From Anaerolineae bacterium (GTDB taxonomy: Bacteria > Chloroflexota > Anaerolineae > B4-G1), in the NCBI GenBank assembly GCA_016931785.1, contig JAFGED010000202.1:1-49649 (forward strand): a stretch of 49,649 nucleotides of DNA. The letters are read 5' to 3'. Below are positions 9,553-46,522 of the stretch, in pieces (the first letter of the stretch is position 1; every line of letters begins with the position of its first letter). Under the pieces are notes generated by a model. It was not told the origin of the DNA. It did no database searches and was given only the letters and a program-made list of their open reading frames with translations. A program made the translations under genes and the position numbers.

Positions 9553-11232
9553 TCAAGGCCAACAAGGCCGATCTTGCTCGACTAGATCAGCCACGTAGGC
9601 CAACACGGCCTCTGTTTCTCCCTCAGCAGGTTCTCCCCGCTCAAGCAGTAGAATGCGCCCAGCCCAGTACCGCACACGAAAGTCGCCAGTGCCCATAATC
9701 TGTGTAACGATCTCCCCGTAGCTTGCGCGCGGGTCTGGAGCCGGGACGACCCTGCAATCCACCAAGTCAAATAACACATAGTCCACCATCTCCAGGTGAT
9801 CCAGCCGAAGCGGGGCAGGATACTCCAAAGCCACCAACACGCGGCGGTCAGCGAGTTGCGGCCCCAAGCGATTGACCGTGGCGACACCTGCATCGGGAGG
9901 AATCTGCGCCAGCGCCTCCGCAATCTGATCGTGGTGGGGTTCAGGCTGGAACATCCCCTCTCGAGCGTAGAGACAGATCGGGTTGAGGGCAATGTTGATA
10001 CCCAGCGTACCAAACACCATAAACGCAAGCCCCAAACGGTAGAGGCGGAGTCTGCCAGGGCGATGCAGTCGCCGCAAACCCTCAGACACCGCCAAGAAAA
10101 ACCAGGGGATCAGCACCGCAGGGTACTGGTAACCGACAGAGTGGAACGCCGGGCGCTCCCCCAGCAAGAGATAGGCCAGTGAAGGCAACGCCACTAGAAA
10201 GGAAGTGAAGCTCCCCGGCGCTTTGCGCCGGGACTTCCTAAGGGAAAAGCCCTCGGGGGCTGCCGCCCCCAAATCTCTCGCCTTGCCATTCACCCCCACC
10301 TCTTGCGGTGGGGTTCTCTGGCTTTTCCCCGTAGACCCCAGAAAAGGAAGAAATCCCAAGGGTAGAAACAGGTGAATCAAGTAGAGGGCAATCGTCTCAA
10401 AAGACGCGCTTCCTATGGGCTGCGCGGTTCCTCCTTGATCAGAGCTTACTCCTCCCAACAGCTTGATCCATAGCTGCCAGAAGCGATACGGCTGCCCCTC
10501 GTTGAAGGTGGGGATAATCAAGCCAAAACACAAAATCGCCCAGACTCCAGCCAGGATCACGAGCCCCAGTCCAACCCGCCGTCTCTTTCCCCACAAAAGA
10601 TTGACCACTCCCCACACTGCTATGGGGATCACCAACTCCTCCTTGACAGACAGGGCCAGCAACACGGCAACCCAGAAAAGGGCCGTTCGCTCTTCATGCA
10701 AAGCCCAATAAGCCAAAAGTATCAGAGGGACGGAAAAAGCGACAGGATGAAAATCCACCAGGTTGAGAAAGCCCAACGCAGGATAGGCCAGATAGCAACA
10801 AGAGACGATGAACGCCGCCCACGCATCCCCCGTCTGCTTGTGGACGACACAATAGAGCGGGAAAGCCGCCAGACCGAGAGCCACGCTCTGCAGGATGAGC
10901 AGCAAACGCGGATCCGGCCACACCCGATAGAGGGGCGCCAAGAAAAGCAGGATCGGGCGAACGTGGTTGCCCAAATAGCTGCCGATGAGCCCTGCGTTTG
11001 TCGCCCGATCTATGGAGGTCTCGAACCAGCGCCCGTGGGCCGTGTTCCAGGTCACCTGGGCCATGATGCCCAGGTCGAAAGTTGAGGAATAGAAATTGTT
11101 GTGCCTGACGACAGACAGCGCGCTGAAAGCAACCACATAAACCAGAATCAGCGGCAAAAGCAAGAGCCAAACTCGAGCTTTATGGCGAAACACAGCACCC
11201 CTTTGCGATGAATCTACTAACCACAAAACCAT
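9553..11232 (-). CDS. DUF2079 family membrane protein carrying an in-frame repeat insertion
   Basis: Paralog of 32941-34473 ('ALSVVRHNNFYSSTFDLGIMAQVTWNTAHGRWFETS', 'GYQYPAVLIPWFF', C-terminal 'RPCWP'); extra segment TGKSQRTPPQEVGVNGKARDLGAAAPEGFSLRKSRRKAPGSFT. Confidence 0.88.
   Translation of the reverse strand: MVLWLVDSSQRGAVFRHKARVWLLLLPLILVYVVAFSALSVVRHNNFYSSTFDLGIMAQVTWNTAHGRWFETSIDRATNAGLIGSYLGNHVRPILLFLAPLYRVWPDPRLLLILQSVALGLAAFPLYCVVHKQTGDAWAAFIVSCCYLAYPALGFLNLVDFHPVAFSVPLILLAYWALHEERTALFWVAVLLALSVKEELVIPIAVWGVVNLLWGKRRRVGLGLVILAGVWAILCFGLIIPTFNEGQPYRFWQLWIKLLGGVSSDQGGTAQPIGSASFETIALYLIHLFLPLGFLPFLGSTGKSQRTPPQEVGVNGKARDLGAAAPEGFSLRKSRRKAPGSFTSFLVALPSLAYLLLGERPAFHSVGYQYPAVLIPWFFLAVSEGLRRLHRPGRLRLYRLGLAFMVFGTLGINIALNPICLYAREGMFQPEPHHDQIAEALAQIPPDAGVATVNRLGPQLADRRVLVALEYPAPLRLDHLEMVDYVLFDLVDCRVVPAPDPRASYGEIVTQIMGTGDFRVRYWAGRILLLERGEPAEGETEAVLAYVADLVEQDRPCWP
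10205..10332 (-). repeat. Composite palindromic element (family 1), 128 bp, in frame inside the DUF2079 CDS
   Basis: Minus strand ACGGGGAAAAGCCAGA...GATTTGGGGGCGGCAGCCCCC...TTCCCTTAGGAAG...GGCGCAAAGCGCCGGGGAGCTTCAC; absent from the paralog. Confidence 0.88.
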
Positions 11233-11261
11233 CGCGCTTGATTATCAGCCTTTAACAAATC

Positions 11262-11399
11262 CTAACAAGCTTTCTCAATCCTCATCCCCAGGTCGAAAGT
11301 AAACGAGTAGAAATTGTCGTGCTTCAAGACGGACAACGCACTGAAAGTCACGATGTAGATCAAAACCAGTGTCCAGAGCCAGCCCGGCGATTTGTTCAT
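11262..11399 (-). pseudogene. N-terminal remnant of a third DUF2079 gene
   Basis: MNKSPGWLWTLVLIYIVTFSALSVLKHDNFYSFTFDLGMRIEKAC*; matches the N-termini of both DUF2079 proteins up to 'FDLG', then stops. Confidence 0.8.
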
Positions 11400-11404
11400 A
11401 CGAC

Positions 11405-14028: not shown

Positions 14029-14070
14029 GTTCTTCCTCTCCCATTGTGCACGTGTGCTTTTGGACTTGCG

Positions 14071-17624: not shown

Positions 17625-17703
17625 GTGCACCACCTACATTTCAAGCACTGCCACATCAAATATGATACCAGAAACAATAGAATTGCCAAACTTGCCCCTT
17701 GTA

Positions 17704-19158: not shown

Positions 19159-20318
19159 TGCGCTCCACCTCGCCGGTCCCGCCACCGTAGCGTCAGCAGA
19201 GCGCCCAACGCCAAGGGAATCACGATCTGCTCCAACCCCGTGGGCAACAGGCATCCGGTAAAGAAAAACCCCCAGGGAAGCGCCAGAACGACCAGTATCG
19301 GCAACCAAGATTGCCATCGCTCCCCACCCGCCCACAGCACGACCCAGGCGGGCAGTAGAGACGCGACCAGCGTATAGACGTTGGTCTGCGGCAAGACGAT
19401 CAACGCGACCAAGATGGCCGTGGAAAGCTCCCAGGGCAGCCGATCCCCGGCCGGCAGACGCCGAGAGCCGAGCCACACCCACACGCCCCACGTCAAAACG
19501 CCAGCAGTCACGAGTGCGGCCAGCCAGACGGGGCCGAGAACGAGCGGGGGCCAACGCAGGAAAGAAGTGCCCGCGTAATCCCCCACTCCACCCAGAAATC
19601 CCCCCACCCAGGGGCCAACGCGCAGCCGCGTCAGCAGCCACAGGCAGATCATCAGCCCCGCCCATACCAGCACCACTTCGCGCCGCCCCATGCGCCAGGC
19701 AGCCAGAAGCAGCACAAATAAAGGCAAGATCGCCATCTCTGGACGGATCGTCACGCCGAGCAGCGCCAGCGTCGCCACCAGCGGATGGCCCCGCGCCAAA
19801 CCCCACCAGGCGACGACCAGGCAGGCCAGCGTAAAGGGCGTGAACTGCCCCAGGATGTAGGACGTGATGGGGTAGCGATAGAAAAACACGGAGAAAAGAA
19901 GCGTCACCGCCAGGAGGATGGGAGGTATCCGCCACTCCAGCAAAGATACCAACAGCAGCGGCAGCGCCAGCAATATCAAGAGCTGCAGCCCGCACCACAG
20001 GCTGACCGCCAGGGGAAACGGCAAAAGCCAAAAGGGCAGCAACAGCCAGGTGATGAAAGCCGGATAGGCGAACCGCTGGTGAATCTCCTCCGCCCCTCCG
20101 AACCACTGGCCAAACATGCCCTCGTGGATGCGCCGGACGACCTCTGGCGAGTAGGGGCTCTCCCCGGCCAGCACCGCCCGAGCCCCCACCCAGCAGTGAT
20201 AAAAATCGAACCGGTTCTGGCGTGGAAGGGCCAGCAGAAAGTAGGACGCCGCCGAAAGCAGAGCCCACAGGAGCAGCATCAGCGCGACCAACTGCCAGCG
20301 GCGGGTCCTTCCAATCAT
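19155..20318 (-). CDS. GT87/DUF2029-like membrane glycosyltransferase
   Basis: 'DFYHCWVGARAVLAGESPYSPEVVRRIHEGMFG...RFAYPAFITWLLLPF'; start MIGRTRR overlaps the upstream stop by 4 bp. Confidence 0.8.
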   Translation of the reverse strand: MIGRTRRWQLVALMLLLWALLSAASYFLLALPRQNRFDFYHCWVGARAVLAGESPYSPEVVRRIHEGMFGQWFGGAEEIHQRFAYPAFITWLLLPFWLLPFPLAVSLWCGLQLLILLALPLLLVSLLEWRIPPILLAVTLLFSVFFYRYPITSYILGQFTPFTLACLVVAWWGLARGHPLVATLALLGVTIRPEMAILPLFVLLLAAWRMGRREVVLVWAGLMICLWLLTRLRVGPWVGGFLGGVGDYAGTSFLRWPPLVLGPVWLAALVTAGVLTWGVWVWLGSRRLPAGDRLPWELSTAILVALIVLPQTNVYTLVASLLPAWVVLWAGGERWQSWLPILVVLALPWGFFFTGCLLPTGLEQIVIPLALGALLTLRWRDRRGGAQ

Positions 20319-21883
20319 CGCACGATCACCTCGTACAAAACGACCTGCAACGCCCCCTCCCCCCACTCTGCAACCCGCTGCAGCCGGGGATGAACCAGCC
20401 CATCCGGCGGCAGCGGCCAATTGCGATCCAACACGACGTAGGTAACGCCGTATCGATCAGCCGCAGCCAGCAGCGCCTCCACACCTCCAGTGTGCGCGGG
20501 CACGGCGACGGCCGGGTGTCGGGTGTAATACCAGAAAGCGGGCGCGTTGTTTGCCATCACAACCGCTTCCTCCCCAATGCGCGCCTGCTCCATCCAATCG
20601 CCCACCCTCTCATAGGCCCGGTCAACCCCCTGCCAGGCGCGCACCTTTGCCCTGCCCGCATAGAGGCCGAACACGACCGCTCCAGCGACCACCGCCACGG
20701 TAAACACCGCCGTCGCTTGCCGGATCTTCCACCGCCGGCGCTGCCCCACCCACTTCACTGTCGCCTCCAGCCCGTCCATCGCTGCGGCGAAAAGGAACGG
20801 CAAGACAGCCGAGCTGGCGTGAAAAAAGCCGCCACGGACGCCCGGATACGTAAATGCCAACGAGTGGGCCAGGTAGACAAGGACCAAGTAGATGAGAGAG
20901 AGCGGAAAGGAGGGCTTGCGACGCAGGCGGTAGAACCCGATAACGGCCAGGGGCAATAAAAAGACCAGGCAGTTCTCCCCCAGAAACCGCTGCAGGTTCA
21001 CACTCAGCGCCGACAGCTTGGCCTGTAGAATGTTCCCCCAGCCCCAGGCGAGATAGGACTGGAGCGAAAGGTCGCACCCGTAGCAATACAGATCGTCGTA
21101 ATGGGTGAGCCACAGGGTCTTGGCGCCGCCGGGGGCAAGCGGCGATCCGACCGCGACACTATTGCGGATGAACCAGGGTCCCATCGCAAACAGATACCCC
21201 AGGACTACAAACAGACTATGATGAAGCGTAAGGCGTAAAACGTGAGATGTGATCCGTGAGGAATGATCCGTGATGCTCGGCTTTTGAAGAAATAAAGGCG
21301 CAAGGGCGACCACCGGCAGCAGCATGACGCCATCGGCGCGCGTGAGATGTGCCAGCCCAACCAACAGGCCAACAAGCAAACTCACCCACCCATTGCCGCC
21401 CGCCAGCCACAGCGCCAAACTCCCGAAAAGGGCAAACGGCGCAAACGTCTCGGGCAGCGTCCAGTGCGGGAAAAAGAAACCGCTGAACAGCGTGATCAGG
21501 CCCGCAGCCCAGGCAGACCGGCGCGAGCCTACAGCCCGCCGGGCAACGCCGTAGCCGACCAATGGCAGGAGGGCGGAGAGAAGGGCAAACGGAATCTGAA
21601 GGGCAAAGAAAGAACCCGGAAAGGACGCCGCAAAAGGCGCAGCCAAGAGAGAGGGCAACGGCATCCAATACAAAAAGCCCGGTTGGGGGATTTCCTCCGG
21701 CTCGCCCAAATAGTTCCAGATGTAAGGCTCGTCCAGACCGCCGCCCTCTGCCAGGTTCACCGCCCCGGCAGCGTAATAGGCCGGGTCCATATAGCCGGCG
21801 CGGGAGATGAACGCGGCGGTCGCCAACCGCACGACCAGAGATAGGAGAAACAAAACCAACAGGTCGCGTCGCTCACGGCTCAC
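20315..21883 (-). CDS. GT39-like membrane glycosyltransferase with an in-frame heptamer-array insert
   Basis: 'YMDPAYYAAGAVNLAEGGGLDEPYIWNYLG'; insert 'SITDHSSRITSHVLRLTLHHS'. Confidence 0.8.
   Translation of the reverse strand: MSRERRDLLVLFLLSLVVRLATAAFISRAGYMDPAYYAAGAVNLAEGGGLDEPYIWNYLGEPEEIPQPGFLYWMPLPSLLAAPFAASFPGSFFALQIPFALLSALLPLVGYGVARRAVGSRRSAWAAGLITLFSGFFFPHWTLPETFAPFALFGSLALWLAGGNGWVSLLVGLLVGLAHLTRADGVMLLPVVALAPLFLQKPSITDHSSRITSHVLRLTLHHSLFVVLGYLFAMGPWFIRNSVAVGSPLAPGGAKTLWLTHYDDLYCYGCDLSLQSYLAWGWGNILQAKLSALSVNLQRFLGENCLVFLLPLAVIGFYRLRRKPSFPLSLIYLVLVYLAHSLAFTYPGVRGGFFHASSAVLPFLFAAAMDGLEATVKWVGQRRRWKIRQATAVFTVAVVAGAVVFGLYAGRAKVRAWQGVDRAYERVGDWMEQARIGEEAVVMANNAPAFWYYTRHPAVAVPAHTGGVEALLAAADRYGVTYVVLDRNWPLPPDGLVHPRLQRVAEWGEGALQVVLYEVIVR
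21227..21275. repeat. Degenerate heptamer array inside CDS
   Basis: cgtaagg cgtaaaa cgtgaga tgtgatc cgtgagg aatgatc cgtgatg. Confidence 0.7.
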
Positions 21884-25008: not shown

Positions 25009-26958
25009 TCAAGGCTCCCTCGGCACGTAATCGGCGATCACCAAGGGCGGTATGGTAGGCACCCTGGATACCGTCCCGGCTTCCACCTGCCAACCTGCAG
25101 AGATGCTTCTCACCAGCGGCGTCTCCTGATCGGCCAGCCGGGCCACTCGCACGCGCCCCACACCCTGCGCGGCCAGCCGCTCGTCCAACGCGCTCCATTC
25201 GTCCGGCGTGCGCACGACGAGGAACGGCACCTCGCCGTACACCTCCGGCGCGATCTGCGGCACGAACCAGAGATCGGTGACGACGACGGTCCTATCAGGC
25301 GCGCGAAGCAGCGTGCGCGCGAGCACGTCGTTCCCGGCACGGACGTGCCACAGCTTCATCACGCCCACCGCCTGTACCGCCGCTCCGGCCAGCAACAGCG
25401 TCACTAACGCCCCGCGCACCGCGTACCGCTCCATCGAGGAACGCGCGCCCCGTTCCAGACGATCCCAGCGCTCGACGGCCAACAGCACGAGCGGCCCCAG
25501 TAGCGGCGTCAAATAGCGCGGTCCCCACTGCCACCCGCCGGACTGGCGGCCCAGCACGACCGATAATACCACGACCCACACACACCAAACTGCCAGCTGC
25601 CGCCGCCAACGGCCCCGGGTCGCTACGCTCTCGGCTCGCTCTCCGAATCTCAAAAACGCCAGGCAGGCCACCGGCGCTCCGAACAACAGGTCAATCGGGT
25701 GGTAGCCGCGCGACACCAACACCACCGCGCCCACAGCCACCAGCACGAGGCCGAGACATTCGACCGTCGAACCCAATCGCCCGGCCAGGGCCGGACGCAG
25801 CCTGCGATAGGCATACGCCATCCCGAAAACCGCCAGCCCGCCGGCCAGGATCACCAGCACGCCCAGCTGCCGGCTCTCCACGACCATCTGGCTCATCTCG
25901 AACAAACGCCTGAACGACCACACGCGGGTCTCAAAAGCCGATGGGGCAAAGTTCATCGCGGCCTGGCCGCCGATCGCTTGGCCCACGACGGCGGCCTGAT
26001 ACGCCCAGCCTACCAGGCCTGCCAGGCCCAGTCCGGCCGTCACCCAACCCAGCGCCGGCCACATCGAACGCCGCACGACCAGCACGGCCAGCAAGGCCAA
26101 CACAGAAGTACCCGCCTCCGGACGGGTCGCCACCGCCGCTCCCAGGCACAACCCCGCCGCGATCCCCGACAGGACCCGCGACTGGCGCATGTCTGGAATC
26201 ACCAGCGTCAACGCCCCCCAGATCAGCACGCTGGCGAGCGTGTGCCCCCAAAACGTCACACTGTAAAACAGCCACGACGAGGCCAGTCCCAGCGCCAGCA
26301 CGACGAAAAAGGCGACCCGTCCAGAAAACCGGCGGCCCACCCAAGCCGCCAGGGCCAGCCCCCCCACCCCCGCGATCAGCGGCGGGGCGTAGAGCGCTGG
26401 CAGTCCCCCAGCCGACAGCAACAGGCTGGACAGAAATATGTAGGGCAGCGTATAGATCGTGAGAACGCGATCTCCCTCCCACACGGCAAAGGGCGCGCCC
26501 AGCGGGGCCAGAGCGTGATCCGGATCGAGGACGGCATTGGCCCCGGCGTAGGAAGCCCAGGGCGTGCGCCAGCCGTTGGCGATCCAGGCCTCCATCTGCC
26601 ACAGCTTGACGCCGGCATCTCCGCTCCAAAAGCCGCGACAGGGCGACAGCGCCAGCACGATCCCCACGTACAGCGCGCCAACGATCACGACCAGCACCCA
26701 CGTGAAGCTCCCCGGCGCAAAGCGCCGGGGCTTCCGGGAAGACTCCCCTTCGGGGAGCTTCCTAAGGGAAGAAGCCTGTGCGAGCTTCGCTCGCGCGGGG
26801 GCGGCCGCCCCCAAATCCCCCGCTTTACGGCAATCCTGCGGATTACGGCAATCCAAGGGATTGCACCTCATCCCCACCGCAATGCGATTGCCAACCGCAA
26901 AGCGGTTGGACGCTTTCTGGCTTTTCCCCGTCAAGCGCAGGAGATTTTCACGGTTCAT
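25009..26958 (-). CDS. Multi-TM GT39-like protein with an in-frame repeat element right after the first nine residues
   Basis: ATG at 26958 (ATGA overlap with the upstream gene); MNRENLLRL followed by the 230-bp element, then 'WVLVVIVGALYVGIVLALSPCRGFWSGDAGVKLWQMEAWIANGW'. Confidence 0.8.
   Translation of the reverse strand: MNRENLLRLTGKSQKASNRFAVGNRIAVGMRCNPLDCRNPQDCRKAGDLGAAAPARAKLAQASSLRKLPEGESSRKPRRFAPGSFTWVLVVIVGALYVGIVLALSPCRGFWSGDAGVKLWQMEAWIANGWRTPWASYAGANAVLDPDHALAPLGAPFAVWEGDRVLTIYTLPYIFLSSLLLSAGGLPALYAPPLIAGVGGLALAAWVGRRFSGRVAFFVVLALGLASSWLFYSVTFWGHTLASVLIWGALTLVIPDMRQSRVLSGIAAGLCLGAAVATRPEAGTSVLALLAVLVVRRSMWPALGWVTAGLGLAGLVGWAYQAAVVGQAIGGQAAMNFAPSAFETRVWSFRRLFEMSQMVVESRQLGVLVILAGGLAVFGMAYAYRRLRPALAGRLGSTVECLGLVLVAVGAVVLVSRGYHPIDLLFGAPVACLAFLRFGERAESVATRGRWRRQLAVWCVWVVVLSVVLGRQSGGWQWGPRYLTPLLGPLVLLAVERWDRLERGARSSMERYAVRGALVTLLLAGAAVQAVGVMKLWHVRAGNDVLARTLLRAPDRTVVVTDLWFVPQIAPEVYGEVPFLVVRTPDEWSALDERLAAQGVGRVRVARLADQETPLVRSISAGWQVEAGTVSRVPTIPPLVIADYVPREP
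26702..26931 (-). repeat. Composite palindromic element (family 1), long 230-bp copy, in frame inside CDS
   Basis: Minus strand ACGGGGAAAAGCCAGA...GATTTGGGGGCGGCCGCCCCC...TTCCCTTAGGAAG...CGGCGCTTTGCGCCGGGGAGCTTCAC; peptide TGKSQKASNRFAVGN...AGDLGAAAP...SSLRK...APGSFT. Confidence 0.88.
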
Positions 26959-30220: not shown

Positions 30221-30290
30221 CGGGACGCCTCCTCTGGGCGGAGCAGACGCAGAGATAACCACCCGCAATTGGCGTTCCAGCTACCGATTC

Positions 30291-31439: not shown

Positions 31440-32953
31440 TCGCCGTCTACCTCCCGTAAGTCACACAGCAAGAGACTCACACCATACCACACTCTCGCAT
31501 CCTCGCAGTCGTAGCTCCTCGCGGCCCGTTCCACGATCCCGCGATGGCGCTCGGCAAGCTCCTGCGACATCTGCACGTCGGCGGTGACGAGCCACAACCG
31601 CTCCCGCCCGGCGATGGCCTCGTCGAGTGACTGGATCCGCTGCCCGGCCCAATCCCACGTATAGGGTGGCAGCCAGATTTCTGGGTCATTGTTCAGCAAA
31701 TAGCTCTCCGCCCCCGGCGCATAGTAGCGCAGCGGCAAGTAGGTGCTATCGTGCAGATGAAAGAGAACGTCCCCCTCCCGCCAGCCCTCCCGCACCCCCC
31801 CGCCAACCTCGCGAAACGGCGGCTTGGCCGGGTCGGGGTTGAGATAATAGTTCCCAAGCGAGATCGCTATCAAGACCGCCAGAACCCCGTAAAGAACCCG
31901 CACCGGAGAGCCCTTGGGCGGATGCGCCAATCCCCATCCCAGCAGCAGCACGTAAGCCGGCGCGACCAGGCTGAAGGAACGGTCCAGGTAAACGGGCTTG
32001 GCCAGCCAGGAGATCACCAGAGCGATCAAGTTTGGAGCCAGCACCAACGCCAGCAGCAAAAGCGCCCGCTGGCGCGCCTCGCCACGGGCGCGGACGCCAG
32101 CCCAAGCCACGAGTGTGATGATGGACAAAGCCATGAAAAGCGCCACCGGATTCAGGAACACGGGCGTCGTATGGCTAAAGAGCAGATAAACCAGCGTCTT
32201 GACGAGTTCCAGCGGGGAGGGCGTGGAGAGCCAAAAGCCGGTCGCCACCTGCTGAGTTTGCGCCAGCGCCGATGGCGCGTGCGGCCCCCACAACACCAGG
32301 GCCACCCCATCGGCCAGGAGCAGGCCCCACCAATAACGCCGGTCTTGCGGCCATTTCAGCAAAACAAAGGCGTGGAGCACCAGCAGCGTGAACGCGGTAA
32401 AATAGTGCGCGCAAAGATTCAGGGCGAACAGAAAACCCAGCACGACCCAGCGCCACCCACTCGCCTTCTCGCAAGCGCGGGCGAACCCCCACAGCAGCAA
32501 CGCCGATAGCAAGATGACGAGCGCGTACAATCGGGTCTCCTGGGCAAAGTAAACCTGGAAGGGCAGCACGGCCGTCAGCAGCGCGGCAGCCAGCCCGGTG
32601 GCGGGGGTAAACAGCTCGCGGCCGAGCGCGTATATCACAGGAACGGTCAGCAGCCCACACAGCGCCGAAAAGCCGCGCAGCACCGTTTCACTCTCGCCCA
32701 ACCGAATCCAGAAATGAAGCAGAAAGTGATAAAGCGGGGGTAGAATTGGCTCCAGCCGCTGGGCGAGAATAGCCCAGGCCGGTTGCCGCGCCACCAGCCA
32801 ACTGAATGCCTCGTCGGCCCACAGGCTGCTGGCGCCGATGTGAAGCAGGCGCAGGACGCAAGCCAACACCAGAACCGCCAGCAGCCAGACCGGGCTTTCC
32901 ACACGCGGGAGACGGCCCAGAAGAGAACGCAGACGAGAGCTTACGGCCAGCAC
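31436..32953 (-). CDS. GT39-like membrane glycosyltransferase ('YFAQETRLYAL' subgroup)
   Basis: 'GASSLWADEAFSWLVARQPAW...FQVYFAQETRLYALV'; clear paralog of 17704-19158 and 23480-24988. Confidence 0.85.
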   Translation of the reverse strand: MLAVSSRLRSLLGRLPRVESPVWLLAVLVLACVLRLLHIGASSLWADEAFSWLVARQPAWAILAQRLEPILPPLYHFLLHFWIRLGESETVLRGFSALCGLLTVPVIYALGRELFTPATGLAAALLTAVLPFQVYFAQETRLYALVILLSALLLWGFARACEKASGWRWVVLGFLFALNLCAHYFTAFTLLVLHAFVLLKWPQDRRYWWGLLLADGVALVLWGPHAPSALAQTQQVATGFWLSTPSPLELVKTLVYLLFSHTTPVFLNPVALFMALSIITLVAWAGVRARGEARQRALLLLALVLAPNLIALVISWLAKPVYLDRSFSLVAPAYVLLLGWGLAHPPKGSPVRVLYGVLAVLIAISLGNYYLNPDPAKPPFREVGGGVREGWREGDVLFHLHDSTYLPLRYYAPGAESYLLNNDPEIWLPPYTWDWAGQRIQSLDEAIAGRERLWLVTADVQMSQELAERHRGIVERAARSYDCEDARVWYGVSLLLCDLREVDGE

Positions 32954-34473
32954 GGTCGCCCTTCCTCCACCAGGTCGTCCACATAGGCCCGCACCTCGTC
33001 CACCTCTTCCCCTGGCGGAAGGCCGCGTTCCAAAAGAAGGATGCGATCAGACCAATAGCGCACGCCAAAATCCCGCGTGTCGAGAATCTCGTATGTCATT
33101 CGCCCATAGTCGCCTCTCGGGTCCTGCGTGTGAAACAGGCGACAATCCACCAGGTCCAACAAGACATAGTCCACTTCGGCCATGTGGTCCATATTCAAGC
33201 CGGTCGTGTATTTTTCAAGGCCAATCAAGCAGCGCCGATTGGCCAGGTGAGGTCCAAAAGGATTGACGGTGGCGACACCGGCCCGGGGAGGGATCAGCGC
33301 CATCGCCGCTTCGATCTGCTCGTGCTGAGGCATGTGCATAAAGTAACCGCTCAGCCAACTGGTTCGGACCGGGTTAAAGGGCAAGTTTGCGCCCAATGTC
33401 CCTATCAACAGCAAACTTACAGGCAGCCACTTTTTCAAATCGTGCCGCAGCCGCAAGCGTCTTTCCAGCCTGGACAATCCCTGGATGGTGGCTAGGAACA
33501 GCCAGGGAATCAACACGGCAGGATATTGAAAACCGACTTGGTGCAAAGCAGCTCGGTCGCTCAAAAGCAAATATGCAAACGAAGGCCAAGACACGGCGAA
33601 TAATTCGGGCCCGAACAGAGGCAAAAACCCCAAGGGTATTAAGAGATGGGCAACAAAGTAGGCCGAGTCAACGGAAAACAAAGCCCCTCCAGAGCCCCCA
33701 CCACTACTCCCCAATTCTCCCAAAAACGGCAACCGAGACCATAGATCAAAGAAACGATAGGCGCGTCCTTCGTTGGCAGCGGGGATGATCACGATGAAAC
33801 AAAGAAACGCCCAGGCGATGGCCGTTCCCAGCAACCACACCCCTCTCCTGCGCCACGCTGAAAAGAACAGACAATAAACACCAAAGGCTGCTACAGGAAC
33901 GACCAACTCCTCCTTGGTCGATAGGGTAAGCAAGATCATCGCCCAGAAGAGAATCTTACGCTCTTCCAACAAAGCCCAATAGGCAAAAAGCAATGCAGGG
34001 ACACAAAAAGCCACGGGGTGAAAATCAAACAGGTTGATAAAGCCCAAGGCCGGATACAACAAATACACAATAACCAGGACGTAATGCAAAATAGGGCGCT
34101 TTAAATTTCGCCGTGCAATCCAGTACAACGGTACAGCCCCCACTGCCAGCACAATCGATTGCATGCTCAACAACACGCGAGGGTCGGGCCACAGCCGGTA
34201 CAGCGGCGCCAGAAAGAGCAGCAGGGGCCGCACGTGATTGCCCATATAGCTGCCGATCAGTTCTGTATCCATCGCTCGATCCAGCGACGTCTCAAACAGC
34301 CGCCCATGTGCCGTATTCCAGGTGACCTGGGTCATGATGCCCAGATCGAGCGTAAAAGAATGAAAGTTGTCATGCTTGACTATCGACAAAGTCGCATATG
34401 TCGCCACGTAAACCAACATCAGCACACAGAGCCATATCGGCACAGCCTTACTCAGCTTCGGAACGAACGTCAT
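32941..34473 (-). CDS. DUF2079 family membrane protein (without insertion)
   Basis: Paralog of 9553-11232; 'LSIVKHDNFHSFTLDLGIMTQVTWNTAHGRLFETSLDRAMDTELIGSYMGNHVRPLLL'. Confidence 0.88.
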   Translation of the reverse strand: MTFVPKLSKAVPIWLCVLMLVYVATYATLSIVKHDNFHSFTLDLGIMTQVTWNTAHGRLFETSLDRAMDTELIGSYMGNHVRPLLLFLAPLYRLWPDPRVLLSMQSIVLAVGAVPLYWIARRNLKRPILHYVLVIVYLLYPALGFINLFDFHPVAFCVPALLFAYWALLEERKILFWAMILLTLSTKEELVVPVAAFGVYCLFFSAWRRRGVWLLGTAIAWAFLCFIVIIPAANEGRAYRFFDLWSRLPFLGELGSSGGGSGGALFSVDSAYFVAHLLIPLGFLPLFGPELFAVSWPSFAYLLLSDRAALHQVGFQYPAVLIPWLFLATIQGLSRLERRLRLRHDLKKWLPVSLLLIGTLGANLPFNPVRTSWLSGYFMHMPQHEQIEAAMALIPPRAGVATVNPFGPHLANRRCLIGLEKYTTGLNMDHMAEVDYVLLDLVDCRLFHTQDPRGDYGRMTYEILDTRDFGVRYWSDRILLLERGLPPGEEVDEVRAYVDDLVEEGRPCWP

Positions 34474-35951
34474 GGCCCCTCCCGCACCCAGATCACCGCC
34501 ACGTCATCCCGGTAGGCCTCCTCCCACTCACCCACGCACTCTAGTTGGAGAGAGAGCATGTCGTCCGGATAGGTGAGGACGAGATTGACGTCGTACTCGC
34601 CCAGCACCTCTTCAAAACCAGGCTGCCCCAGCTGCACCTCCAGGTACCGGCGCAGGAACGCATCCCCGTACAGATCCGTCCGTCCATCTGCAAACACGCG
34701 ATAATGGGGATACAGCGACCAGATGAGGTATCCCCCCCAGTTGTAGGGATTGAACATCTCCCCCTCGGGACGGTTCTCGAGAATCCAGGCCGCGGCATCC
34801 ACCGGCAGGCTCTCTCGCTGCTCCCGCTCGTTGAACGCGGGGGTCAGCGGCGTCCACACCCTCACGACCGCCAAGGCGAAAACGGCCCCCAGCAGCACCA
34901 AATTGACCACACCCGACACGGCGCGCAAGCGGCTGGCACGCCTCGCCCCGCCGCTCCATAGCCGCCTAAGGATCGCCGCCACGTGCCGGCTGAGCACCGG
35001 CGCGACCACCAACGCAAAGGGGGCCAGGTTGCGCCAGGCCAGTAGGGAGGCATAGGCGAACATGCCGACCAGCGCCAGATCGGTCCCATCCACCCGCCGC
35101 CCGGAAAGTCCCATCGCCGCCAGCGTCCCCAGCAGCAGCCAGATGAAGGGATGAGTGTACAAGAGATGAAAGTCGGGCGACCGCCACTCCTGGATGAAAT
35201 CACGCAAGGCGCCGATCCCCACCGTGTCCAGGTAATAGGTCCACATCCGCGCGCCATAGGGGTTGAGCACCAGTAGGACGGCGGAAAGCACCGCCACCCC
35301 AATCACCATGCCGATGCCCCGCCAGCTCGCCGCCGCGTCGTCGCCCTGAACAACCAACCCCAGCAAACGGTTGAACGCCTCCCCGATGACAAAAGCGACC
35401 AGCACCATAAACCCCAAGGCATATCCGGCGTGCAGGTTGGCCCACAGGATAAACAAGGGCGGCAGGAGCCACAGCCGGTTCACGCCGCGCCATTTGAACA
35501 GGTAAAGGATATAGGTCACCACGGCGGTCAGCAAGAAGGAGAACACCTGCGGGCGCGCCGCCCAAATCGCCGAAGACGTCGCCGCGGCCAGGACGACGAT
35601 GAACGCCCGGCTGAAGGGATCCCCCTCCATCTGCATATAGACGAAGGCGAAGGCAAACGCGACGATCACACCGATCAGCAGCCCTAACCCGGCGTAGGAA
35701 AATGTGCGGAACAGCCAATAGAGCACGACCTGGCTGAGCCAGCTGTGGTTGACCCAGGTAGAGGCATAGCGCGTGTGGGAGAACAGATCGGTTTGGAGGA
35801 CCTGGCCGCTCTCCAGCATCTCCTGGCCGGCGCGAAGGTGCCACCAGGTATCGGTGTCCGCCGGCGCGCGGACCGCCATGGCGAACAGCGCCACGAAGAG
35901 AATCGCCACCGCCAGGCGGCGCGCGTTGAACCACAGCAAAAACCGCCTCAC
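34470..35951 (-). CDS. Multi-TM membrane protein, tandem paralog of the next gene
   Basis: GTG start in a GTGA overlap; 'NARRLAVAILFVALFAMAVRAPADTDTWWHLRAGQ' almost identical to the neighbour. Confidence 0.82.
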   Translation of the reverse strand: MRRFLLWFNARRLAVAILFVALFAMAVRAPADTDTWWHLRAGQEMLESGQVLQTDLFSHTRYASTWVNHSWLSQVVLYWLFRTFSYAGLGLLIGVIVAFAFAFVYMQMEGDPFSRAFIVVLAAATSSAIWAARPQVFSFLLTAVVTYILYLFKWRGVNRLWLLPPLFILWANLHAGYALGFMVLVAFVIGEAFNRLLGLVVQGDDAAASWRGIGMVIGVAVLSAVLLVLNPYGARMWTYYLDTVGIGALRDFIQEWRSPDFHLLYTHPFIWLLLGTLAAMGLSGRRVDGTDLALVGMFAYASLLAWRNLAPFALVVAPVLSRHVAAILRRLWSGGARRASRLRAVSGVVNLVLLGAVFALAVVRVWTPLTPAFNEREQRESLPVDAAAWILENRPEGEMFNPYNWGGYLIWSLYPHYRVFADGRTDLYGDAFLRRYLEVQLGQPGFEEVLGEYDVNLVLTYPDDMLSLQLECVGEWEEAYRDDVAVIWVREGP

Positions 35952-37438
35952 CGTCCCTCCCGCACCCAGATCACTGCCACGCCGTCTCGATAAACCTCGG
36001 CCCATCCCCCAGCGCACTCCAATCGGGCCGACAGGGCGTCATCGGGATACGTCACGATCAAGTTGACGTCATACGCCAGCAGTGTATCCTCAAAACCTGG
36101 CTGCCCCAACTGCACGCGCATGTGCTCGCGCAGGAAGGCGTCCCCGTACATGTCGGTCCGCCCGTCAACAAAAACACGATACTCGGGCCACAAGGCCCAC
36201 ATCAGATAGCCGCCCCAATTGTAGGGGTTGAACATCTCCCCCTCAGGACGGTTCTCGAGAATCCAGGCCGCTGCGTCCACCGGCAGGCTCTTTCGCTGCT
36301 CCTGCACGTTGAAATCCAAGTTCAGCGGCGTCCACACCTTGACGACCGCCAGGCCGATGACCAGCGCCAACAACGCCCCATTGATCGCACCGGCAATCGG
36401 CCGCCCACGCGCTAACTTGCGACTCAACCAACCGGATAGACCAAAGCGCTTCAGAGCCGCCGCCACGTGCCGGCTCAAAACCGGCGCGGCCACCAAGGCG
36501 AAAGGGCCAAAGTTGCGCCGGGCCACGAAAGAAGCGTAGGCGAACATCCCCACCAAGGCCAGATCGACGCCGTCCACCCGCCGTCCAGAAAGCCCCACCG
36601 CCGCCAGCGTCCCCAACAGCAGCCAGATGAAGGGCTGGACGTAAAGTGGGTGAAAATCCGGCGACTGCCACTCCTGAATAAAGTCCTGCAGGAAACCAAC
36701 ACGCACGGTGTCGACGTAATACGTCCACATGCGGACCGTATTGGGGTGGATCGCCAGAAGAAGAAAAGAGAGAACGGCCAGGCCAACGACGAGGCCGATC
36801 TTGCGCCACCCCAACACGGGATCGTCAGTCGGGGCGATCAATGCCAACAGGCGATTGAGCACCTCGCCAGCGACAAAGGCCGCCAAAACCATAAACCCCA
36901 GAGCGTACCCGGCGTGCAGATTGACCCACAGGACAAACAGGGGCGGCAGGAGCCACAGCCGGTTCACGCCCCGCCACTTGAAAAGATAGAGAATGTAAGC
37001 CAAAACAGATGTGAGCAGGAACGAGAACAAATGCGGGCGGGCGATCCACACCACCGCCGACGTCGCCGCCGCCAGGATGATGATGAACGCCCGGCTGAAC
37101 GGATCCCCCTCCATCTGCAGTGTGACAAAGGCAAAGGCGGCAGCGACCATCACGCCGATCATCACCCCCAGCCCGGCGTAGGAAAAGGTGCGAAACAGCC
37201 AATAGAGAATGACCTCACTGAGCCAGGAATAGGCGACCCACGGGGACCCATAGAAGGTGTGAGAGAAAGGGTCGCTGCGGATGATCTGGCCTCGCTCCAG
37301 CGTCACCTGGCCGGCTTTCAGGTGCCACCAGGTGTCGGTATCGACCGGGGCGCGGACGGCCATGGCAAACAGGGCTACGAAAAGGATCGCCACCACCAGA
37401 CGACGGGCGTTAAGCCAAATCAGAGCACGTCTCACCAT
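35948..37438 (-). CDS. Multi-TM membrane protein, tandem paralog of the previous gene
   Basis: 'NARRLVVAILFVALFAMAVRAPVDTDTWWHLKAGQ'; C-terminal 'EVYRDGVAVIWVREGR' vs 'EAYRDDVAVIWVREGP'. Confidence 0.82.
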   Translation of the reverse strand: MVRRALIWLNARRLVVAILFVALFAMAVRAPVDTDTWWHLKAGQVTLERGQIIRSDPFSHTFYGSPWVAYSWLSEVILYWLFRTFSYAGLGVMIGVMVAAAFAFVTLQMEGDPFSRAFIIILAAATSAVVWIARPHLFSFLLTSVLAYILYLFKWRGVNRLWLLPPLFVLWVNLHAGYALGFMVLAAFVAGEVLNRLLALIAPTDDPVLGWRKIGLVVGLAVLSFLLLAIHPNTVRMWTYYVDTVRVGFLQDFIQEWQSPDFHPLYVQPFIWLLLGTLAAVGLSGRRVDGVDLALVGMFAYASFVARRNFGPFALVAAPVLSRHVAAALKRFGLSGWLSRKLARGRPIAGAINGALLALVIGLAVVKVWTPLNLDFNVQEQRKSLPVDAAAWILENRPEGEMFNPYNWGGYLMWALWPEYRVFVDGRTDMYGDAFLREHMRVQLGQPGFEDTLLAYDVNLIVTYPDDALSARLECAGGWAEVYRDGVAVIWVREGR

Positions 37439-37556
37439 CTCAACTCTCTTTCGGCAGTTCGGAGGCAAAAACGACTACCACAGGTACTTTGCACAGGGTC
37501 TATTTCACTTTGGGAGAGCGGGCCTTTATTGTGCTTGACATTCTGCTTGGTCTGCG

Positions 37557-37862: not shown

Positions 37863-39485
37863 TCACCTTCTCGCCGACTCCCACGTCTGTGGAGAAAGGC
37901 GGAACACCTTCAAGATAGGCGCACCATCCACCTCGATGACGTAAACAGGGGCCAGGTTTTCCTGGCAATACCCTTCTATAGCGCCGTACTCCGTGGGGCG
38001 GGTGGTATACATCACATAGACTGGCCCGCTGGCCGGCCGGGGCTCATCCGCCGAGATCACTATCACATCCGGGCGTATCCACAAACCGTGCACGGCTTCC
38101 GCCAAATGGCGCTGCCCCTCGGGCAGGTAAAGGGCCGCACCATCCGGCGCAGCCCCGTTCACCCATGCAAACCCCTGCCGGTAAGACGTTCCCCAGTAGT
38201 CGGTGGCATCCCTCACACCTGCCGCCTGCGCCCCCGGCAGCCCACCGATCAATCGATTGAAGAAGGCGATCTCGTAGGGCGCAAAACGCACGACGCAGAG
38301 AAAAGCGGGAAAGACGAGCAACACGGCCACGACATGCGCCAGCCAACGAGGCGCTCGAACGGCCTGCCTCACGAACCACGCGACCTCCCCTCCTCCTAGC
38401 GCGGCCAAGATCGCCGCCGCCGGCACGACTTCCATAAAGTGCCGGATGCCATCGTACACGTTCATCCCCGGCATGCTCGCCCGCATCACCGGAAGAACGA
38501 TCCACAACCACAGCAACAGCACAGAGCGATGTCCGTCGTGACGCCACAGGCGTATAGAGCCAACCGTTCCCCAGCACGCCAACAACAACGTCGAAAGGGG
38601 CGTCGTGAAGGCGATAGCCAGCACAGGGTACAGCGTCCATCCTGCCCGCCCGGAAATCCCGACCCAGCGCCAATACACCCACAGCCCCCTCACCGTATCC
38701 AACGGCCTCAACCACATCGCCGGCCAGGCCACGATAAAGCCAGCAAGCGCAGCTAGAGGAAAGGCTATGAGCGCCGGCCAGGCCCGCCGCTCATGCGCCG
38801 ACGCCGTCCGCCAATGGGGATGCCGCACCGCGACCCACAACGCGCCAGCAGCAGCGGCCAGCGCCAAATTGGGCCGCACGCTGAAACCCACGCCAAGCGC
38901 CAAACCGGCTCCGAGAATCCATCCGGGGCGGCGAAAAGTGACACCCCGCCAAAGTGCCCACAAGGTCACACAGAACATCAAGGTTTTTGGAATGTCCTTC
39001 AGGTTGTAATGGGCATGGCCCACAAAACGCGGGAAAGAAGCCAGGGCCAACGTCGCCAGCAACGCCGCCGACCGGCCAAAGGCCTCGCGCGCAAAGAGGT
39101 ACGTCACAGACAGGGTCGCTCCACCCATCATCACCACAGCCGCATGGCGGGCATCCACCGGGTCCATCCAACCCGTCCAACGCCCCAGCACCCGCCCGGT
39201 CAGCGCAGCTGCGATGTTGGGAAATGGAGGATGAACGTGACTGTCCAGGAGCCGCAGGTGGAGCCCATCAGGATTATCCACGCCAGGACACGGGCGACCA
39301 AAGTCCAAGAACGTGACATCACCCGTGGAGAAAAAAGCCAGGTACCGTTCCCCCACCACCAGGTTCTCCGGCTCATCCCACGTCAGGCCGTACCGGTCGC
39401 CGAAAAGCAAACCGATAACCACGAACAAAACCCCAACCAGTGCGGCTATCGCAACGTCCCTTCGAGAAGCGATGGTAGGCGTCAC
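37863..39485 (-). CDS. GT39-like membrane glycosyltransferase
   Basis: GTG start at 39485 (GTGA overlap); 'DRYGLTWDEPENLVVGERYLAFFSTGD...HPPFPNIAAAL'. Confidence 0.82.
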   Translation of the reverse strand: MTPTIASRRDVAIAALVGVLFVVIGLLFGDRYGLTWDEPENLVVGERYLAFFSTGDVTFLDFGRPCPGVDNPDGLHLRLLDSHVHPPFPNIAAALTGRVLGRWTGWMDPVDARHAAVVMMGGATLSVTYLFAREAFGRSAALLATLALASFPRFVGHAHYNLKDIPKTLMFCVTLWALWRGVTFRRPGWILGAGLALGVGFSVRPNLALAAAAGALWVAVRHPHWRTASAHERRAWPALIAFPLAALAGFIVAWPAMWLRPLDTVRGLWVYWRWVGISGRAGWTLYPVLAIAFTTPLSTLLLACWGTVGSIRLWRHDGHRSVLLLWLWIVLPVMRASMPGMNVYDGIRHFMEVVPAAAILAALGGGEVAWFVRQAVRAPRWLAHVVAVLLVFPAFLCVVRFAPYEIAFFNRLIGGLPGAQAAGVRDATDYWGTSYRQGFAWVNGAAPDGAALYLPEGQRHLAEAVHGLWIRPDVIVISADEPRPASGPVYVMYTTRPTEYGAIEGYCQENLAPVYVIEVDGAPILKVFRLSPQTWESARR

Positions 39486-41665
39486 GGCGATCTGCCTCTC
39501 TTCCCTGCGACCAAGAGTCCCAGCACCACGGCCACTGCCACCACCGTCAGTACGATGCCGACCGTCAAGCCGGACGGCCAGTAGGCAAACGTCACTTGAT
39601 GCCGCCCCTCCTCCAAATAAACGCCTCGCAGAGTTCCTGCGACGCGCACCAGCCCCGCGCCTTTCCCATCCACTCGCACCTGCCAGTCGGGGTCGTACAC
39701 CTCGCTCAGCACCAACAGCCCCGGCCCTTCCGCCTCCACCCGGATGCGATTGGGCGTCCATTCGATGACACGCACCTCAATCACACCTGGACTTTTCAAC
39801 GCATCCTCGCTTTCGACGACAAAAGCCCGCGGGAACGCGCGTTCGTTTCGATAGAGATACACCCCGCCCTTTTCCCCAATCGGCACCAAATCGCGTGCCT
39901 CGATCGGGTAGGCCGCCGCCACGTAGCGCACGTTCAAAAGCCCCAGCAGGCGCGGATCGGGCGCCACGTCCCGGTGGGCCAGCAGCATGTCCTCCCCTTG
40001 AGGCACATCTGGGAATGCGGGCACCGTGACGCTGTAACCCGGCAGGTCGACGCCCGTAGCGGCGCGCATGAAATCGACATAGTCGGCCAACTGGAACGGA
40101 TCGACGCCATCGACCATCTCGACGCCGCAAACCGCGCCGGTGTGCTGCGGGATCGAGTAACTGGGAGAGTAGACGCGGAAGCGGCCAGGCTGCTCCGCCA
40201 GCCACGCCGCAGCAGCCTCTCCTTCGGCCGACACCTCGTCCGCCGGTCGCACCCGGTAGAGGGTAGACCCGACGTAGAACAGATCCAGCAACGCCAAAGA
40301 GAACGTCAAGCCGGCAAAGAGCGCCGGCCTCAATCGCCCGCCTATCCGCAGCGCAACCAACACCCCCGCCAAGGGCCAGAGCACCGCCGCCGCCACGACG
40401 TTAGCAGGCAGCCGCAGGACAACGCCCCCAATTCCTCCGGCCAACGCCGCGCCGGCCAGCCCAACCGCCACGCGACCCGTCCAACCACGCCTGAGAACCC
40501 CGGTTTTTTGGAAAAACCGGGGTTCTTCCAATGCGGTCAGTCCCCACGCAGCCAACACCGCCGCCGCCAGCACGACCAGGAACCAGGCGCGCGCCGGTCC
40601 GCGCAGCCATCCCAGCGGTGGCAGCACGCGATACAGCAGACCGTAGATAGGCGTGTTGGTGCCCAGCGAGTAGATGGCCGCGACCAGCGCCAGACCACCC
40701 CACCACCATCGCTCCCGACCCCGCCACAGCCCCAAGCCGACCAGCGCCAGCAGCAGCCCCGCCACCCCCAGGTAGGTCATCGTCTCCTGGAACCCCCCGT
40801 GATCCGCCACCAGCAAGCCCACCAGATAGCTCGGCGGGAGGGAAGCGATGCCGCTCTCCTCCAGCGTCAATCCACCGCGATTCAGCCGTCCCGCCACCGC
40901 CGCCAAAGGCAGCACCTGCACGGCCACCAATGCCCCCACAAGCGACGCAGTGCCAATCGCTGCCGCCATTTGCCATTTGCGATTTGAGATTTGAGATTTG
41001 AGATTTACTGCCCAATATCCCATCGCTGCCAGCCCGCCGTAGAACCCCAGACGCACGTCGGCCAGGATCAGCATCGCCGCCGTCGCCGCGGTCATCGCCA
41101 CGTCACCCGGGCCGCCACGCCTCGCCAGCCGCCGCGACGCCCAGAGCACCCACGGCAGCCACGCCCAGGCACAGTACAATCCCACGTGCCCCGAGGCCAG
41201 ATGGGCCAGCGCCTTGGGCGTGAGCATGATGACGAGGGCCGCCAACAGACCGCCGGCCTGAGAGGCCCCAAGCGACCGCGCCAACCGATACCCTCCCCAT
41301 CCGGCCCAGGCGGTGTGTAGGACAAAGAGCAGGTTGAAGGCCAGTGTCAGCGGGAGAATCAGGAGCAGCAGATTAGGCGGATACCAGAGGCCAGAAAGCG
41401 GATTAGCAGCGAAAGGCTCCCCGCCCAGAATCAGGTGACGCCACAATGGAACCTGCCCCCAGGTCGCCAGGGAATGGCGGATAAAGAATGCGTTGGGCCA
41501 GTGGGTTATCGTCAAGTCAGAGTAATCGCCGGCGGGACGATAGAGGAAACCGCTGGGGGTAAACCACAGTCGCCAGAAAAGGGCTGCCGCCGGTACCAGC
41601 AGCAACAAATAACCCCATCGCCGCATCAATATCCGCCTCAAAACCACGCTAGGAAAAGCCAACAC
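39482..41665 (-). CDS. YfhO-like multi-TM membrane protein with two in-frame repeat inserts
   Basis: 'PAGDYSDLTITHWPNAFFIRHSLATWGQVPLWRHLILGGEPFAANPLSGLWYPPNLLLL'; inserts 'NLKSQISNRKWQM' and 'EEPRFFQKTGVLRR'. Confidence 0.82.
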   Translation of the reverse strand: MLAFPSVVLRRILMRRWGYLLLLVPAAALFWRLWFTPSGFLYRPAGDYSDLTITHWPNAFFIRHSLATWGQVPLWRHLILGGEPFAANPLSGLWYPPNLLLLILPLTLAFNLLFVLHTAWAGWGGYRLARSLGASQAGGLLAALVIMLTPKALAHLASGHVGLYCAWAWLPWVLWASRRLARRGGPGDVAMTAATAAMLILADVRLGFYGGLAAMGYWAVNLKSQISNRKWQMAAAIGTASLVGALVAVQVLPLAAVAGRLNRGGLTLEESGIASLPPSYLVGLLVADHGGFQETMTYLGVAGLLLALVGLGLWRGRERWWWGGLALVAAIYSLGTNTPIYGLLYRVLPPLGWLRGPARAWFLVVLAAAVLAAWGLTALEEPRFFQKTGVLRRGWTGRVAVGLAGAALAGGIGGVVLRLPANVVAAAVLWPLAGVLVALRIGGRLRPALFAGLTFSLALLDLFYVGSTLYRVRPADEVSAEGEAAAAWLAEQPGRFRVYSPSYSIPQHTGAVCGVEMVDGVDPFQLADYVDFMRAATGVDLPGYSVTVPAFPDVPQGEDMLLAHRDVAPDPRLLGLLNVRYVAAAYPIEARDLVPIGEKGGVYLYRNERAFPRAFVVESEDALKSPGVIEVRVIEWTPNRIRVEAEGPGLLVLSEVYDPDWQVRVDGKGAGLVRVAGTLRGVYLEEGRHQVTFAYWPSGLTVGIVLTVVAVAVVLGLLVAGKRGRSP
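40494..40526. repeat. Perfect 15-bp-arm palindrome in frame inside CDS
   Basis: agaaccccggttttt-tgg-aaaaaccggggttct. Confidence 0.85.
40967..41008. repeat. Heptamer array (6 units, 42 bp) in frame inside CDS
   Basis: catttgc catttgc gatttga gatttga gatttga gatttac. Confidence 0.85.
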
Positions 41666-44891: not shown

Positions 44892-44912
44892 TGTGCCATC
44901 CACGTGTATAAT
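44884..44912 (+). promoter_or_regulatory. Putative sigma70 promoter (TTGGTC-17-TATAAT)
   Basis: TTGGTC 44884-44889, TATAAT 44907-44912; 18 bp before the GTG at 44930. Confidence 0.5.
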
Positions 44913-44929
44913 CATATCAGGAGAGACAA

Positions 44930-46522
44930 GTGACGGAACGTGAAACACGTCGCAATCGCCTCGATTGGCTGCTGCTCGCCGGGCTGGTGATCATCGCCCT
45001 GCTGGCCCGCCTCGTGCCCGGCGAGCGCACGGTGGACGACGCCTACATCACCTTCCGCTACGCCCGTAACGCCGTCGAGGGAGCCGGATTCGTCTACAAT
45101 GTCCCTTCGACAGGCTCAGGGCATGGCGAACGCGTGCTGGGCACGACGACGCCGCTCTACACGCTGCTAATGGCGGGGCTCTCGCTGCTGACCGGATCCC
45201 GCGACTTTCCCGCCATAGCGCTGATCGCCAACGCGCTGGCAGGCGGCTTCTCCGTCGGGATGCTCTATGGCCTGGGCAAGCGATTCGCCGGCCACCCTTT
45301 CCCCGCCGCGACCGTGGCGCTCCTGTGGGCCCTGGCCCCTTTTAGCGTCTCCTTCGCCGTGGGCGGGATGGAGACCGACCTGACCATCGGCCTGCTCATC
45401 GCCGCCGCCTACACTTATCTGGCGGAGCGTCCCCGCGCGATGGCCGTCCTATCAGCGCTGGCGCTCCTGGCCCGCCCAGACACGGCCATCTTGTTAGGAC
45501 CGCTCTGGCTCGGCCTCATCCTGGCAGAGCGCCGCATCCCCTGGCGAGAGGGACTGATCGGGCTGGCCATCCTGGCCCCCTGGCTGATCTTTGGCACGCT
45601 GTATTTCGGCAGCCCGCTCACCAACTCCGTCTCCGCCAAATCCGTCGTCTACCTCCTCCCTCCCGGATCAGCCTTCCTGCGCCTGCTGCAACACTACGCC
45701 ACGCCCTTCATCGAACAGAACGTCCTGCCGCCTGCAGGCATCTTTGTCGCCCTCGTCGTGTACTGCGGCCTATGCGCCCTAGGCTCTATCAACGCGTTCC
45801 ACCGCGACCGCAAGGCATGGCCGCTGATCGCCTACCCCTTCGTCTACTTTGGGGTCTTTGCCCTGGCCAATCCCCTCATCTTTCGCTGGTACCTCTCCCC
45901 GCCGGTGCCGTTCTACTTTCTGCTGATCGTCACCGGCGTGTGGACGGTGAATCAGGATATTGGCAAATTGGTAAACTGGGAATCGCGGCGCTTTCCCATT
46001 TATCTATTTGCCAATTTACCATTCACCATCTTCACCGTCGCCGCGCTCGCCCTCACGCTCAACGCCTGGACGCTGCATCCCGACCACGGCCCCGACCGGC
46101 CCGCCCCGGAGATGGCCTGGTTCGGCGGCGAGATCGTCTACCGCCAGATCGCGCTCGACCTCAAGGACCAACTTGGGCCAGGCGATGTGGTCGCCATCGC
46201 CGATATCGGCGCCTTTGGCTACTACAGCGAGGCGTATATCCTGGACCCGGTCGGCCTGATCTCGCCGGACTCTAGCCGGTATTACCCCGTCCCGCCCGAG
46301 CAGCACGCCAACGCCCTGGCGGTATCCACGCAGTTGATCCTGGATCGGCAGCCCAGCTACGTGATCATGCTGGAAGCCTACATCCGGCACACCCTGCTCG
46401 AATCGGACGCGTTCAGTGTCCAGTACGAGCTACTCGATACCATCGAGACCGACATCCTGGAGAGCTCGGCCTTTATGGTCTTTTGCCGATCCGACCTAGA
46501 TGTGGACGAAAAAGGCCAGTAG
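44930..46522 (+). CDS. GT39-like membrane glycosyltransferase with two in-frame repeat inserts
   Basis: 'VDDAYITFRYARNAVEGAGFVYN...GERVLGTTTPLYTLLMAG'; GTG start with 'aggaga' SD. Confidence 0.85.
   Translation: MTERETRRNRLDWLLLAGLVIIALLARLVPGERTVDDAYITFRYARNAVEGAGFVYNVPSTGSGHGERVLGTTTPLYTLLMAGLSLLTGSRDFPAIALIANALAGGFSVGMLYGLGKRFAGHPFPAATVALLWALAPFSVSFAVGGMETDLTIGLLIAAAYTYLAERPRAMAVLSALALLARPDTAILLGPLWLGLILAERRIPWREGLIGLAILAPWLIFGTLYFGSPLTNSVSAKSVVYLLPPGSAFLRLLQHYATPFIEQNVLPPAGIFVALVVYCGLCALGSINAFHRDRKAWPLIAYPFVYFGVFALANPLIFRWYLSPPVPFYFLLIVTGVWTVNQDIGKLVNWESRRFPIYLFANLPFTIFTVAALALTLNAWTLHPDHGPDRPAPEMAWFGGEIVYRQIALDLKDQLGPGDVVAIADIGAFGYYSEAYILDPVGLISPDSSRYYPVPPEQHANALAVSTQLILDRQPSYVIMLEAYIRHTLLESDAFSVQYELLDTIETDILESSAFMVFCRSDLDVDEKGQ
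45101..45124. repeat. Short dispersed-repeat-like insert (24 bp) inside CDS
   Basis: gtcccttcgacaggctcagggcat between codons for 'FVYN' and 'GERVLGTTTPLY'. Confidence 0.6.
45949..46028. repeat. Imperfect inverted, heptamer-like repeat in frame inside CDS
   Basis: ttggcaaattggtaaactgggaa...ttcccatttatctatttgccaatttacca; encodes 'NQDIGKLVNWESRRFPIYLFANLPF'. Confidence 0.65.

Follow-up and report, generated by a model that had tools for sequence, protein, structure and literature searches.

The locus and its host genes

The analysed stretch, referred to below as the window, corresponds to the 49,649-base contig C172. It belongs to a MAG of 4.81 Mb in 481 contigs that is about 90% complete, with about 5% contamination, and whose named relatives are Anaerolineae. 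All data used here are MAG-derived, and the gene calls were home-made throughout. Between 9.5 and 47.6 kb, the window carries about 20 multi-TM genes, which have DUF2079, PMT_2, GT87 or YfhO matches, or none. The structural model of one host protein of 530 amino acid residues has the GT-C fold, matching AftB, ArnT and PglB, and on the basis of this model the multi-TM genes of the window are regarded as GT-C-type membrane glycosyltransferases. The source genome has 55 PMT_2 matches, and its contig C177 carries a second array of PMT_2-type genes.

Several other features were found in the window. Two tandem paralogues of 515 and 506 residues without a Pfam match lie at 34470-37468, with DNA blocks that are 73-76% identical. 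The region at 11284-11382 resembles the start of the adjoining DUF2079 gene (74% to 11066-11164) and is, judging from this resemblance, likely the remnant of a third DUF2079 paralogue. An intergenic repeat that has many copies and forms long hairpins is present at 2119-2272 and again at 49562-49649, and since the second copy lies at the contig end, this repeat probably broke the assembly. A further dispersed intergenic repeat, CGGGTGCATTTGCCCC...AACACACGCTT, was found at 5623-5705 and 9267-9355. A search of the window for Rfam families gave no match.

Repeat inserts of the window

The original prediction held that at least eight in-frame repeat inserts lie in six GT-type genes of this region, and all eight were found there with their frames open. 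The inserts, named here by the start positions of that prediction, fall into four families: an element of about 129 nt (element A; 10205 and 26702), tandem arrays of 7-8 nt (21227, 29219, 40967 and 45949), a palindrome (40494) and the CCTTCGACAGGCTCAGG repeat (45101). They extend or replace the protein relative to its homologues while the frames stay open, and the evidence for them is of unequal strength. The encoded peptides had also been described as mostly hydrophilic and placed in loops; exceptions are 45949, whose peptide is overall not hydrophilic (mean KD +0.28), and 26702, which is an N-terminal extension. The inserts and one adjacent intergenic copy are as follows.

9425-9551, minus strand: element A copy, intergenic, directly downstream of the DUF2079 gene, its end adjoining the stop codon; 87% identical to the 10205 copy
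10205-10337, minus strand: element A, inserted in frame in gene 9553-11232 (DUF2079, GT-like), where it encodes STGKSQ..GVNGKARDLGAAAPEGFSLRKSRRKAPGSF
21226-21280, minus strand: degenerate period-7 array, NCGTGAK-type, in the 522-residue GT-C gene 20315-21883 (residues ~199-220)
26702-26934, minus strand: long variant of element A, N-terminal extension of the GT gene 25009-26958; blocks in common with the 10205 copy
29219-29253, minus strand: period-7 array, GCGGATT-type, in the 698-residue GT-C gene 28172-30268; score 13
40494-40526, no strand: perfect palindrome AGAACCCCGGTTTTT-TGG-AAAAACCGGGGTTCT, in the 727-residue YfhO/GT-C-like gene 39482-41665; encodes EEPRFFQKTGV
40965-41006, minus strand: period-7 array (CTCAAAT)n, in the same 727-residue gene; encodes NLKSQISNRKWQM
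45102-45123, plus strand: CCCTTCGACAGGCTCAGGGC repeat, in the 530-residue GT-C gene 44930-46522; encodes PSTGSG
45949-46032, plus strand: two degenerate 7/8-nt arrays inverted relative to each other, also in the 530-residue gene (residues ~340-368)

Array 40967 has 4.6 nearly perfect units with 33/35 matches at period 7, the highest value of 1.13 million genome windows, and it is nearly length-neutral, so that the array seems to have taken the place of native sequence in the loop. Arrays 21227, 29219 and 45949 are degenerate and each is weak when taken singly, as comparable period scores occur in about 3-6 per 10,000 genome windows (21227; 25/44 matches at period 7, reached by 6e-4 of genome windows; 45949, which is nearer to period 8; 37/71 matches at that period, 3e-4 of genome windows). 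The case for these three arrays consequently leans on the arrays found in the same loops of their homologues (see below). The protein with 21227 is 7-8 residues longer than several close homologues, and its model has a coil at residues 202-207 with pLDDT < 50.

The palindrome at 40494 adds 7 residues relative to two close homologues (L178 and L180), and a second copy was sought in 0.96 Mb of the source genome without success. Insert 45101 provides about 7 extra residues that are absent from 10/10 homologues shown. It interrupts FVYN(P)GERVLGTTTP, a conserved stretch near DDAY that forms a motif in what is predicted to be the first extracytoplasmic loop (EL1). Two further in-frame genic copies of the CCTTCGACAGGCTCAGG repeat family were found in the sample (L076, 7776, and L110, 4259). 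A CCCGAGCTTGCCGAGGGACGC stretch like this family also lies beside two heptad arrays in the loop of a homologue of the 522-residue protein (L211, genome G027).

Element A has 50 matches in the source genome, many of them at contig ends, and has sharp ends, GTGAAGCTCCCC...GGCTTTTCCCCRTA, about 129 nt apart. At 10205, it adds 42 residues relative to the window paralogue 32941-34473. Three copies are intragenic, namely 10205 and 26702 in GT genes and one in a gene for a soluble beta-helix protein (L006), and all three are read on one strand and in one frame (TGKSQ..SLRK..SF); the 26702 peptide is in the same frame as that of 10205, with TGKSQ..GDLGAAAP..SLRK..RRFAPGSF. Element A is thus a dispersed element that lies in frame in unrelated genes, with strand and reading frame constant among the intragenic copies. 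A G+C hairpin at its terminus, with GAGCTTCAC-like sequence after it, presumably resembles IS200/IS605-derived MITEs, although ends in common with a Y1 transposase were not found at the loci examined (none seen shared at four Y1_Tnp loci of the source genome, of which the TnpAB locus L259 lacks its right end).

Short arrays in the whole genome

Array density was determined in 1.14 Mb of the source genome, consisting of contigs C1-C100 and 19 contigs picked for carrying element A, and searches for exact patterns covered the whole source genome. In the 1.14-Mb sample, arrays with a period of 7 or 8 are prominent, against about zero at periods 4, 5, 10 and 11. At the lower threshold, the density per Mb is 126 arrays in intergenic DNA, 74 in genes with at least 6 TM and 12-21 in the remaining genes. 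The exact whole-genome search with one heptamer family gave 34 matches at about 27 places, against 0 for the backwards control, so that 7-nt tandem units, as in STRR-type repeats, are present at many loci. Among the 24 distinct arrays of this family with context, 19 are coding and 5 intergenic, and 18 of the 19 coding arrays are in the open, stop-free orientation.

Eight of the 19 intragenic copies are in membrane glycan genes, and GT-C genes account for 7 of the 18 intragenic host genes, compared with 4% of coding DNA as estimated from the 55 PMT_2 matches together with other families. With the window excluded, membrane glycan genes make up 6/17 host genes, while their share of coding DNA is estimated at 3.8% (P = 3e-5; an assumed share of 6% gives P = 3e-4), and strict PMT_2 genes give 4/17 against 2.1% (P = 4e-4). 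The GT-C enrichment is about tenfold. In the unbiased sample, genes with at least 6 TM showed a clear excess when arrays were counted (P = 0.003) but not when host genes were counted (3/17, P = 0.28). GT-C genes are therefore preferred but not exclusive hosts of the arrays.

The remaining intragenic copies of the heptamer family lie in HypF, CopA, chorismate synthase, a YprA-type helicase, GT4 enzymes and other hosts. Array hosts named by Pfam/NCBIfam also include AroQ, GH94, a penicillin-binding protein, a subtilase and FAD oxidoreductases. Since core soluble enzymes also carry arrays, the expectation that such inserts are confined to GT genes is refuted, and their predicted absence from housekeeping genes holds within the window and fails genome-wide. 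The HypF gene (L049:5655-7973) has three heptad arrays and the CopA gene (L059:505-3051) has four, with motifs intact in both. Among 60 relatives, 45 gave a HypF orthologue. Alignment to solved structures placed an array directly before VQHHHAH in HypF and another before GDGINDAP in CopA; with 45101 lying in the EL1 motif, these arrays beside catalytic motifs indicate that the supposed avoidance of catalytic regions by the inserts is not strict. Relative to PDB structures, the arrays are insertions in CopA (+18 residues) and HypF (+6, +10 and +21), and replacements in the YprA helicase (0 residues net) and chorismate synthase (+4).

The gene for the YprA/MrfA-type helicase (L108:7485-10073) also has an HNH match at residues 686-740, a stretch unaligned to the solved YprA structure. 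Coding period-8 arrays of the (CTTGCAAA)n type were found at L042:12286, L080:15791 and L054:1647 and in L188 and L190, and L190 (G002) has in addition a period-10 array, (CGCAGACAGG)n. In L221:676-2547 (G006, contig C93), the heptad array KISNLQSPISDLKSQL is at the junction of NadC (residues 12-276) and NadA (residues 274-623) within one ORF, and from its position it would act as the linker of a NadC-NadA gene fusion.

Recurrence of arrays in homologous loops

The loop with 21227 in the 522-residue family is filled with (GTCATTG)n in G003, with (GTCATTT)n and other repeats in G027, with an array of about 40 residues in G035 and with (CTCTTGC)n in G053, whereas other homologues have a short loop here. 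In G003, G027 and G035, a further loop of this family is filled as well, at residues ~162-168. Other arrays were found in the 45949 loop of L152, L153 and L155, a different array at the 29219 site of the homologue L169, and a period-8 array in the 40967 loop of L188. Altogether, 6 of the 11 arrays detected in homologues fall inside the windows around the homologue's counterpart of an insert described here, compared with 0.9 expected (P = 7e-5); a per-genome variant of this test was dropped because the arrays had been chosen after inspection. Some loop arrays of related genera may be inherited rather than independent.

The array units are genome-specific: ATCTCMA is frequent in the source genome and hardly occurs elsewhere, seven relatives have GTCATTK, which the source genome lacks, and the units differ even among Anaerolineae genera. 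When the helices of the models were counted on the assumption that the N-terminus is cytoplasmic, the recurrent loops (residues 160-165 and 200-207 of the 522-residue protein and 352-362 of the 530-residue protein) would be cytoplasmic, opposite the catalytic side with EL1. The orthologous loops of other genera, filled with arrays of other units, support the original prediction of a tolerant landing zone, which thus stands as enrichment in GT-C genes and recurrence in loops, and not as a zone restricted to GT genes.

Proposed spread of the arrays and alternative explanations

We consider it probable that short arrays particular to each genome spread, and that they persist wherever orientation and length leave the frame open, most of all in unconstrained loops of GT-C proteins. 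The genome holds several small dispersed repeat families, the main one being arrays of a 7-nt (less often 8-nt) unit and the second element A. These repeats would enter genic and intergenic DNA alike, either by clean insertion or by replacement of a native loop with little net change in length, and genic copies would be kept only if the strand is stop-free and the net length preserves the frame. Since 7 shares no factor with 3, a heptamer array gives one heptapeptide in all three frames of a stop-free strand (for example, KSQISNL and QSPISNL), which makes 7-nt arrays unusually easy to accommodate, provided that the net length is a multiple of three. Short inter-helix loops of GT-C proteins would be the most permissive hosts, which would explain why arrays recur there in different genera. 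The repeat-encoded peptides would be neutral.

We propose, from the sequence patterns, that the arrays are mobilised. An inverted partner is nearby for 26% of arrays, compared with 0.9% in the control, and the dispersal of units, the replacement of native sequence and the inverted pairs together fit template switching or gene conversion. Spread would most likely proceed by such copying from existing arrays.

Tetranucleotide or homopolymer repeats switch surface-glycan genes in Haemophilus and Neisseria, and the arrays might likewise be contingency loci, whose units slip and turn the glycosyltransferases on and off. A unit length of 7-8 nt is no multiple of three, GT genes are enriched and 40967 consists of nearly perfect units, as would be expected. 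However, the majority of arrays are short and degenerate, every host frame read is open, and HypF, chorismate synthase and AroQ, where loss of function is costly, also carry arrays, which makes phase switching improbable. The phase-variable simple sequence repeats in glycan genes of Haemophilus influenzae (PMC2651432) are similar in that their units are not multiples of three and lie within glycan genes, whereas the present arrays are mostly degenerate, in frame and also present in core metabolic genes.

Purely local replication slippage could also form arrays de novo in loops, and the likeness among loci would then reflect base composition. Recurrence in unconstrained loops and the degenerate units are consistent with such an origin, but the occurrence of exact heptamer arrays at many places with none in the backwards control, the difference of units between genomes and the excess of inverted partners argue against it, and we think it unlikely. 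A dedicated diversity generator (a DGR or another reverse-transcriptase system) writing variable sequence into GT loops, the other role originally suggested for the locus, agrees with the sequence differences of one loop between genera, but it is highly improbable and was rejected, since the source assembly (about 90% complete) gave 0 RVT_1 matches while control genomes gave matches, the sequences are repeats and not adenine-directed variation, and the hosts, which include core metabolic enzymes, are not limited to one target type.

Spread of genome-specific arrays with survival in open frames accordingly remains our preferred explanation. A broader version of it is tentative, and we would rather doubt than assert it: self-spreading arrays with units coprime to three (7, 8 and also 10 nt) might serve as frame-independent coding filler, with template switching overwriting loops, fusing genes (as in NadC-NadA of G006) and letting the arrays evolve in concert with the unit of the genome, as a general form of protein remodelling in Anaerolineae.

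Relation to known repeats and significance

The arrays are best read as RPE-like in behaviour and STRR-like in units. Like the Rickettsia palindromic elements (RPE), for which PMC10969869 summarises the work of Ogata et al. (2000, 2002), the repeats here are small and lie in frame in unrelated genes, and element A is read on one strand and in one frame in 3/3 intragenic copies. On the other hand, RPE is a palindromic unit of ~150 bp from Rickettsia, whereas the repeats reported here are mainly tandem 7-8-nt arrays and come from another phylum, their genome being related to Anaerolineae and not to the Rickettsia lineage. The STRR heptanucleotide repeats of cyanobacteria and the GGGAATC heptamers of Xanthomonas and Nostoc are reported to be intergenic in the majority (PMC4692102). 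They are likewise dispersed, genome-specific tandem heptanucleotides, while one family here is mostly intragenic (19/24), in frame and recurrent in orthologous protein loops. The repeat strings of the source genome are absent from the papers searched; the literature covered included that on STRR, RPE and heptamers.

In-frame coding repeats of bacteria have hitherto been known chiefly from Rickettsia; the short-unit arrays of Anaerolineae are a different kind in this role, and they occur both in core enzymes and in membrane sugar-transferases. Annotation of such proteins calls for caution, as these peptides derive from repeats. The arrays also inform the spread of repeats without a visible transposase and the origin of gene-fusion linkers. 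The same loops, filled differently in different genera, amount to a natural experiment on which loops tolerate change, in a genome that carries repeats remodelling its proteins without breaking them.
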